Origin: Cyanobacteria bacterium M5B4
Lineage (GTDB): Bacteria; Cyanobacteriota; Cyanobacteriia; Pseudanabaenales; Pseudanabaenaceae
Length of the DNA stretch: 50,677 nt
Assembly: GCA_002861535.1 (NCBI GenBank)
Contig: PHFO01000003.1
Span: 1-50,677 of the forward strand
Reading direction: 5' to 3'
The translations under genes and the position numbers were made by a program. Positions 3,856 to 6,366 of the stretch are shown here, piece by piece (position 1 is the stretch's first letter; the number at the start of each line of letters is the position of its first letter). A model generated the notes under the pieces. That model ran no database searches, was not told the origin of the DNA, and worked only from the letters and a program-made list of their open reading frames with translations.

Positions 3856-3960
3856 TAAGAGAATTAGTAGGTAAAATATTAACTTTTATTAAATGCCCGA
3901 CAACTATTAAACAATGTTAAGTAAAGTTTCCTAAGTGTAAGTGGGGCATCAAGATTAGCA

Positions 3961-3966
3961 TATAAT
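3961..3966 (+). promoter_or_regulatory. -10 box upstream of sulfite reductase
   Basis: A perfect TATAAT lies 19 bases before the probable ATG at 3985, in the AT-rich gap after crtB. This short leader suggests the gene starts its own transcription unit. I see no clear -35 or activator site. Confidence 0.5.
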
Positions 3967-3984
3967 TTCACAATCACTTTGGCT

Positions 3985-5871
3985 ATGGATATGACAGAAA
4001 CGGTAAGACGCTCTAGGGAAGAAGGTATTAAAGAACGCAGTGAGTTTCTGAGAGGGACTCTTCCTACGGAAATTAAGGAGCCTACCCCTGCTTTTAGCCG
4101 TGATGCTGCCCAAATCCTCAAGTTTCACGGTACCTATCAACAGCGCGATCGGGATCAAAAAGGTGATTCCCCCTATACCATGATGCTCCGCACCCGCACC
4201 CCCAGCGGCGTTGTTGCCCCTAGTCTTTACCTCACCCTCGATACCCTCTGCGATCGTTACGGCAACCATACAATCAGAGTCACCGATCGGCAGGCATTCC
4301 AACTCCATGGCGTACCCAAAGCAAACCTACAAACTGTAATTCAAGAAATTGTCCACCATATGGGTTCCACCCTGGGTGCCTGCGGCGATGTCAATCGCAA
4401 TGTCATGGCACCGCCGCCCCCCTACAAAAATTCCCCTGCCTACACCTATGCCCGCACCTACGCCCGCAACATTGCCGATCTGTTAGCTCCCCAAGCGGGC
4501 ACCTACTATGAAGTTTGGCTGGATGGGGAAAAGGCAATTACCGCCGAAGCCCCAGAAGTGACCACAGCCCGCAACCAGAGGGGCAGGGGCACTGTAGATA
4601 CTAATATCCCCGACAGCCCCGAACCGATCTACGGTCGCCAATATATGCCGCGCAAGTTTAAGGTGGCGGTGACTGTGCCTGGGGATAACTCGGTGGATTT
4701 GTTCACCAATGACTTGGCTTTGGTGGTCATTGTCGATGGGGCAGACCAACTCCAGGGCTTCAATGTCTATGTGGGGGGGGGCATGGGGCGTACCCACAGA
4801 GACGAACAAACGATCGTGCGCTTGGCTGACGGCATTGGTTTTGTGCCCGTTGACCACATCTACGAAGTAGTCAAGGCAGTAGTGGCATTACAGCGGGATC
4901 ACGGCGATCGGCTCAATCGTAAGCACGCCCGGCTCAAGTATCTCCTCCATGACTGGGGCGTAGAAAAATTCACCCAGGTTTTGCGGGACTATTACCCCGA
5001 TGAGCTAGCTCCCCTAGTAGAACTGCCCCCATTTACCTATCAGGACTATCTAGGCTGGCACGATCAGGGAGACGGGCGGAGATTTTTGGGCATTTCTATC
5101 CCCAACGGCAGAATTACCGATCGGGAGGGCTGGCAACTGAAAACTGCCCTGAAGGAAATTGTGGAGCGATTCCAATTGCCCCTCCACCTCACACCTCAGC
5201 AGAACGTCCTCATCTGTGATGTCAGCCCTGATATTGGTGGAGAAATTGAGCGCATTCTCACCGATCGGGGCGTATTGATGGCAGATGCGATCGATCGGTT
5301 AGAGCGCCAGAGTATGGCTTGTCCGGCTCTACCCACCTGTGGACTGGCGGTCACCGAGTCAGAGAGGGTATTACCCGATGTATTGCACCGCATTCGTGCT
5401 TTATTAGAGCGCCTGAATTTGGGTCAAGAAAGTTTTGTGGTACGCATGACCGGTTGCCCCAATGGTTGTGCCCGTCCCTACATGGCAGAATTAGGCTTCG
5501 TGGGCAGTGGCATCGGTGAATATCAGGTATGGCTGGGGGGCACCCTAAATAGCACCCGCTTGGCAGAGCCTTACATCGATCGGATGCCCCTAGACAAACT
5601 AGAAGTTAGCTTAGAGCCGATATTTATTTATTTTCGAGAAGAACGGCAACCAGGAGAACTATTCGGTGATTTTTGTGCCCGTAAAGGCATCGATGCCCTG
5701 CGCGAATTTGCTGCTAACTATGTCCCAAGCAAAGTCAAGGATATGCGCCACCGCGTCACCCTTTCCCCGGCGGTTTACCAACGGCTCAAGGAGAAATCCA
5801 CCAGTTCTAACCGTCCCATGAAAGACATAGTGGAAGCCGCGATCGAGCAGTATCTCAACAACTTAGGGTGA
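3985..5871 (+). CDS. sir: Ferredoxin-sulfite reductase with C-terminal helical tail
   Basis: Reduces sulfite to sulfide with six electrons from ferredoxin for cysteine synthesis. The siroheme/[4Fe-4S] ligands are C446, C452, C491 and C495 (CPALPTC and GCPNGC, spacing C-x5-C...C-x3-C), numbered from ATG 3985. A TTG at 3979 and an ATG at 3991 are alternative starts. The substrate-side sequence MGSTLGACGDVNRNVMAPP is of the sulfite rather than the nitrite reductase type. The last 41 residues (588-628) follow the catalytic body as a separate module, RHRVTLSPAVYQRLKEKS and onwards to AAIEQYL, resembling a ribbon-helix-helix unit of small DNA-binding proteins. Plant chloroplast sulfite reductase is known to bind DNA and compact nucleoids, so the tail is worth testing. 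Confidence 0.93.
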   Translation: MDMTETVRRSREEGIKERSEFLRGTLPTEIKEPTPAFSRDAAQILKFHGTYQQRDRDQKGDSPYTMMLRTRTPSGVVAPSLYLTLDTLCDRYGNHTIRVTDRQAFQLHGVPKANLQTVIQEIVHHMGSTLGACGDVNRNVMAPPPPYKNSPAYTYARTYARNIADLLAPQAGTYYEVWLDGEKAITAEAPEVTTARNQRGRGTVDTNIPDSPEPIYGRQYMPRKFKVAVTVPGDNSVDLFTNDLALVVIVDGADQLQGFNVYVGGGMGRTHRDEQTIVRLADGIGFVPVDHIYEVVKAVVALQRDHGDRLNRKHARLKYLLHDWGVEKFTQVLRDYYPDELAPLVELPPFTYQDYLGWHDQGDGRRFLGISIPNGRITDREGWQLKTALKEIVERFQLPLHLTPQQNVLICDVSPDIGGEIERILTDRGVLMADAIDRLERQSMACPALPTCGLAVTESERVLPDVLHRIRALLERLNLGQESFVVRMTGCPNGCARPYMAELGFVGSGIGEYQVWLGGTLNSTRLAEPYIDRMPLDKLEVSLEPIFIYFREERQPGELFGDFCARKGIDALREFAANYVPSKVKDMRHRVTLSPAVYQRLKEKSTSSNRPMKDIVEAAIEQYLNNLG

Positions 5872-5968: not shown

Positions 5969-6366
5969 ATGAGCGAATCACAAAATCCAGTCCAAGGTTT
6001 TTTGGCAATCTCAAAGATAAGGCGCAGAACCTAACGGAAAACGTGGGCAACATGGTAGAAGGAGTTGCTGATAAGGTTTTGGGAGAAGAACGAGTAGACC
6101 AGATCAAAGACGTTTTGAATAAAGACGTAAAAGAGATTGGCAAAGACATCCAAGCCACTGTACAAGACAAGACAGAAGACCTTAAGGAAGGAACGCAAAA
6201 CCTGGCAGGCAAGGTAGGCAACATGGTAGAAGGAGCCGCTGATAAGGTTTTGGGGGAAGAACGGGTAGACCAGATCAAAGACGTTCTGAACAAGGATGTC
6301 AGAGAAGTGGCTAGCGATGTGAAAGAAAAGGTAGAAGATGTCTTAAAACCAAAGACAGACGCATAA
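5969..6366 (+). CDS. Duplicated 57-residue-repeat stress-type protein (one-base frameshift)
   Basis: A small acidic, lysine-rich, all-helical protein of unknown function. The frame starting at ATG 5969 (MSESQNPVQGF) breaks in a T run at about 5999-6003. One extra T joins it to the long frame and gives 132 residues. It holds two copies of a 57-residue unit, with the shared core NMVEGxADKVLGEERVDQIK; the DNA copies begin at about 6046 and 6217, exactly 171 bases apart. The composition and amphipathic 11-residue spacing resemble CsbD/LEA-like stress proteins, but I cannot assign a family. No signal peptide or membrane segment is present. It is followed after four bases by the DUF938 methyltransferase. 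Confidence 0.75.
6046..6308 (+). repeat. Tandem 171-bp duplication inside the repeat protein gene
   Basis: GGCAACATGGTAGAAGGAG occurs at 6046 and again at 6217. About 80 following bases are nearly identical at both places, with a few third-position changes. The nucleotide-level similarity indicates a recent duplication or ongoing gene conversion rather than only protein-level conservation. Confidence 0.8.

Follow-up and report, generated by a model that had tools for sequence, protein, structure and literature searches.

A ribbon-helix-helix-like C-terminal tail on cyanobacterial ferredoxin sulfite reductase, a candidate module for pairing and DNA tethering

Repressors such as CopG, ORF56, AvtR, ParG and Arc share a strand-helix-helix unit of ~43 residues, the ribbon-helix-helix (RHH) fold, and those of the CopG/Arc type are small free-standing DNA-binding proteins. 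PutA of the trifunctional type, a redox enzyme of metabolism, carries an RHH domain fused at its N-terminus; this addition renders PutA dimeric and able to bind DNA, with a Kd of about 58 nM, and PutA represses its own regulon (PMC5293562). A sulfur enzyme on plastid DNA is, for its part, a long-standing puzzle. The C-terminal peptides of plant sulfite reductase (Sir) reportedly are likely to form a bacterial RHH motif, and adding such a peptide is said to have moved Arabidopsis SiR to nucleoids. According to a review (PMC4154389), plastid DNA is bound and compacted by plant SiR (DCP68), a binding also mentioned in the first-pass annotation of our locus, but maize SiR did not turn up in the nucleoid proteome. 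A plant counterpart with a C-terminal peptide is already in print: according to PMC6249382, conserved C-terminal peptides matter for the nucleoid localisation of plant Sir (Kobayashi 2016, GBE evw093, as cited there). Our search of the open literature found no paper on a sulfite reductase with an RHH domain and, judged by title, none on a C-terminal extension of cyanobacterial Sir.

We analysed a window, meaning the whole 50,677-nucleotide stretch of contig PHFO01000003.1 from Cyanobacteria bacterium M5B4, in which a gene with an ATG start encodes a ferredoxin sulfite reductase that continues past its catalytic body (Table 1). Against TIGR02042, the full-length NCBIfam equivalog for this enzyme, the product scores 870.8 bits (cut-off 731.5) over residues 5-579, which places it in the family. 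Maize SiR (5h8v) aligns to its residues 6-579 and is also its best Foldseek match, at TM 0.87/0.97 and ~50% identity. The 41 extra residues described in the first-pass annotation do lie outside both alignments, and the description of a strand-like RVTLS followed by two helices is correct; only the start at 5749 fell one codon late, on the codon of residue 589.

Table 1. The sir gene of the window and the parts of its product
Feature	Coordinates	Strand	Evidence
sir, ferredoxin-dependent sulfite reductase, 628 aa	3985..5871	+	TIGR02042; Foldseek best match maize SiR 5h8v
Catalytic body, residues 1-578	3985..5718	+	TIGR02042 match and maize SiR alignment both end at 579
Linker, residues 579-587	5719..5745	+	Low pLDDT; raised dN/dS
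RHH-like tail, residues 588-628	5746..5868	+	A1 profile 64.4 bits; AF2 pLDDT 93.9; RHH domains as top PDB matches
Strand RHRVTLS, residues 588-594, presumed to face DNA and containing the invariant R590	5746..5766	+	Arg conservation
Helix A, residues 595-608	5767..5808	+	AF2 secondary structure
Helix B, residues 612-627	5818..5865	+	AF2 secondary structure

Modelled alone, the tail is predicted confidently, with an extended segment over positions 1-9 and helices over 10-23 and 27-42 (tail-model numbering); within the whole-Sir model (pLDDT 85.0) the tail blocks score 85-94. DSSP calls no strand in this monomer model, presumably because the partner strand is absent. The model has the strand-helix-helix unit of ~40-50 residues by which the RHH superfamily is recognised, and RHH chains lead the results of both Foldseek and VIA-align. 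The top Foldseek rows are PutA (2ay0 and 2gpe first), CopG, ORF56, AmrZ and ParG, all of them RHH proteins. Foldseek E-values are weak (best 0.057, for E. coli PutA; none below 0.001), and VIA-align pairs all 43/43 residues with 2ay0 and 2gpe without a gap at Z scores of 7.1 and 7.0, inside the range that the tool flags with a warning, as expected for 43 residues; we attribute these modest scores to the small size of the unit.

Sequence profiles point to the same fold. Among 73 representative tails, 29 match Pfam RHH_5 at E ≤0.01, 15 match RHH_1 and 15 match RHH_3, the best at 3.8e-7, and the A1 tail profile matches the solved RHH proteins ORF56 (4e-5) and AvtR (7e-5) in a PDB set. Taken as a single sequence of 42 aa, the window tail reaches 17.1 bits against RHH_1, under the cut-off of 20.5; two of ten full-length relatives scanned exceed an RHH-type cut-off, namely the near relative L036 (RHH_1, 24.7 bits) and L102 (ParG, 26.4 bits). 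Folding of the tail as an RHH unit is thus well supported for the predicted monomer, and the Arc/MetJ-type pattern first proposed from the letters alone is borne out by profile, predicted fold and the conservation described below.

The tail is widespread. In a sample of the phylum comprising 291 genomes, 138 encode Sir at E ≤1e-100; all 138 genes were retrieved and 93 carry the tail. The 45 tail-less genes include 35 from family f20 (picocyanobacteria-like, with genomes of 1.6-3.7 Mb), three from families f18/f26 (L182-L184), three scattered ones (L170, L175, L178) and four from family f38, which lies outside the class. Two genes, L189 and L200, whose alignment stopped at 537, do not appear in the tail table but are counted as tail-less among the 138; a six-frame scan that took them in revealed no tail in either. 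Among 80 named loci, 70 have a complete tail and three are truncated by contig ends, which fall within the tail region in L084 and L100 and ahead of it in L105; the other seven are without a tail (L106, L109, L111 and the four Chamaesiphon loci L112-L115). Such recurrence, in 93/138 genomes and 70/80 named loci, is not due to chance. Close homologues of the window gene, in which a missing tail would have counted against the proposal, are all tailed (L036, L007, L008, L037-L039). Six-frame scanning of 53 loci for tail remnants beside tail-less genes gave only matches with E ≥1.8.

The Sir of cyanobacterium J069 (L106, 2631-4418) breaks off within the linker, whereas its relative L128 continues from that position into a tail, and a contig end lies nearby; its lack of a tail is either a recent loss or an error.

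Within cyanobacteria, profile scores indicate that the tail forms a branch of the RHH fold confined to Sir. The tail profile matches 164/216 Sir proteins at E <1e-3, most of the 164 having also been used to build it, and across 116 genomes it scores 57-78 bits on Sir tails versus at most 29 bits on other, mostly small, frames. One 712-aa frame in the genome of the window was considered as a second RHH-tailed enzyme and set aside as a chance match: it reaches only 12.6 bits against RHH_1 and, by eye, resembles a RelA/SpoT-type enzyme.

In a tree built from catalytic bodies, with 69 tailed proteins among its 95 rows, the tail label needs 7 changes, versus a mean of 23 after shuffling. When the tree is rooted on the f38 rows, the tail-less L182 and L184 branch first, followed by the tailed clade of the window, so that the two deepest-branching lineages of Cyanobacteriia sampled (L182/L183 and L184) lack the tail. 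L184, from genome G174 (3.05 Mb), represents a family of its own. The shortest history would be one gain and six losses; an origin of the tail before L182 and L184 costs only 1-2 extra steps, and the preference for the shortest history is therefore weak. The survey of cyanobacteria shows the tail to be optional for the enzyme and repeatedly lost.

Where the tail is kept, it is under purifying selection. Pooled over 54 non-overlapping pairs of relatives, dN/dS is 0.074 in the core, 0.116 in the RHH part and 0.265 in the linker, and the value for the RHH part shows that selection acts on the tail as a protein. Linker length varies between 5 and 264 residues, with a median of 15 over 163 tails, and in the AF2 model of the window Sir the pLDDT of the linker drops below 50 at residues 585-587 (mean 59 over block 581-590). 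Variable length and low model confidence both speak for a tether. In the Sir proteins of Trichodesmium, Okeania and a Microcoleaceae (L070, L071, L072, L073, L107), body and tail are separated by linkers of 201-264 residues, which contain repeats and abound in Thr, Ser, Pro and Gln.

One arginine of the strand, R590 in the window, is present in all 73 representatives and in 161/161 non-gapped rows of the 163-row tail alignment; in a 63-row full-length alignment it is invariant alongside the catalytic residues. We take the DNA-facing positions of RHH strands to be R4, T6 and T8 in CopG and residues 5, 7 and 9 in PutA. In the gapless match to PutA, R590 falls on residue 7 and T592 on Lys9, a residue which the title of Larson 2006 names for DNA recognition. 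The strand is also basic, with a mean net charge of +4.1 for the pre-strand and strand, against -0.8 and -1.6 for the helices and -4.2 for the core.

We propose that the tail is an RHH unit and that a flexible linker tethers it to a ferredoxin sulfite reductase of the ordinary kind. The tails of two Sir molecules would pair into a two-stranded basic ribbon, whose outer face, made of R588, R590 and T592, would be placed in a DNA groove, yielding a dimeric Sir able to sit on DNA. The invariant arginine at an outward position and the basic face make DNA binding through the ribbon plausible. As a whole, the reading that the tail dimerises Sir, binds DNA and most likely tethers the enzyme broadly to the nucleoid instead of repressing the sir gene is the one towards which we lean, with modest confidence. 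The plant enzyme on plastid DNA and the precedent of PutA also speak for it. Counted against it are the weak fold scores, the RHH-type cut-offs missed by the window tail and by most of the relatives scanned, the dispensability of the tail, with its 7 changes on the tree, and the tail-less state of maize SiR, which was solved with ferredoxin.

Some of these features could be explained by pairing alone, the RHH unit dimerising Sir or docking a partner protein with no contact to DNA. RHH domains pair obligately, in some proteins such folds act purely as pairing modules, and the widely differing linker lengths would fit a simple tether. Adding the RHH domain of PutA to another enzyme makes that enzyme dimeric (PMC5293562). 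However, an outward arginine without exception in 73/73 tails, on a face whose basic charge is about +4, is not expected of a pure pairing module, and we regard this explanation as unlikely, though the strongest of the alternatives. The same basic face could instead receive an acidic partner, such as the electron donor ferredoxin, which is acidic, or else RNA or a membrane. Yet the maize SiR that was crystallised together with ferredoxin is tail-less, and the fold matches are to DNA-binding RHH domains, which leaves docking of this kind highly improbable.

The closest fold match, PutA, is a known enzyme-fused self-repressor, and this raises the alternative of an operator in the sir promoter to which the tail would bind, so that the state of the enzyme would set how far sir is repressed or tuned. 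A k-mer scan did reveal a strongly conserved element, AATTCCGACCGGATTACCGGGGAT, upstream of sir, mostly ~75 bases before the start and almost invariably on the coding strand (L021, L024 and L063 are examples, with the element about 70-80 bases before the ATG). By matrix scan it passes in 79/122 tailed promoters, 77 of the 79 on the + strand; promoter L262 was not mappable. Since these promoters, some tail-less ones included, had themselves gone into the matrix, a strict-pattern search allowing one mismatch gives the sole independent count: run on 143 genomes in sets of 50, 49 and 44, it places the element beside sir in 21/50, 9/49 and, by eye, 0/44, and 39 of these last 44 genomes have Sir. 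Matches outside sir (26/47 in the 50 genomes) are not above the reversed-pattern control, which gave 52; the element is sir-specific, a point in favour of this alternative.

The element nevertheless does not go with the tail. Four of the nine genomes with the strict pattern beside sir are tail-less (G088, G286, G182 and G174, 34-123 bases before the sir match), the tail-less L106 retains the element by matrix, and the matrix scan did not find it in the promoters of the window gene or of L036, both of which are tailed. We have therefore dropped AATTCCGACCGGATTACCGGGGAT as an operator of the tail; another regulator probably acts at this site, and self-regulation in the manner of PutA is not supported and, in our estimate, quite unlikely. 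The tail also differs from the PutA domain in being C-terminal and in having no tail-linked operator found beside it. In place of AATTCCGACCGGATTACCGGGGAT, the window has at 3915-3969 a block common to L036, made of three TAAGT repeats followed by TATAATTTC.

How the cyanobacterial tail relates to the plant enzyme is a separate matter. The likeness to the land-plant nucleoid-type Sir is twofold, as both belong to the same enzyme family and the plant enzyme too has a C-terminal extension, which matters for its placement on chloroplast nucleoids (PMC6249382). With maize ferredoxin Sir, the likeness is confined to the catalytic body: the 583-residue chain of 5h8v is aligned up to its residue 576 and has no tail. 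The suggestion in the first-pass annotation that the tail could be the ancestral link to plastid nucleoids thus finds a printed precedent in the plant peptide, whereas the maize enzyme and the two deepest Cyanobacteriia lineages are tail-less; for this reason it is neither shown nor favoured that the plant peptide descends directly from the cyanobacterial tail. A bolder version, in which the siroheme or iron-sulfur state of the body would alter DNA binding by the tail, and in which this DNA-bound enzyme would foreshadow, in bacteria, the nucleoid enzyme of plants, retained through most of the oxygenic class but abandoned by picocyanobacteria, strikes us as very doubtful.

What is new here is the breadth of the tail among cyanobacteria, its invariant arginine and the pattern of its loss. 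If the tail binds DNA, the puzzle of the plastid enzyme could be addressed in genetically easy cyanobacteria with and without it, and Sir would join PutA among the redox enzymes that carry a fused RHH domain.

Downstream of sir, a small ORF (5970-6366) contains an internal tandem repeat, with two copies of NMVEGxADKVLGEERVDQIKDVLNKDV. Its likely ATG start lies in a different frame, with a run of T in between, so that the reading frame is broken here or the assembly is wrong.
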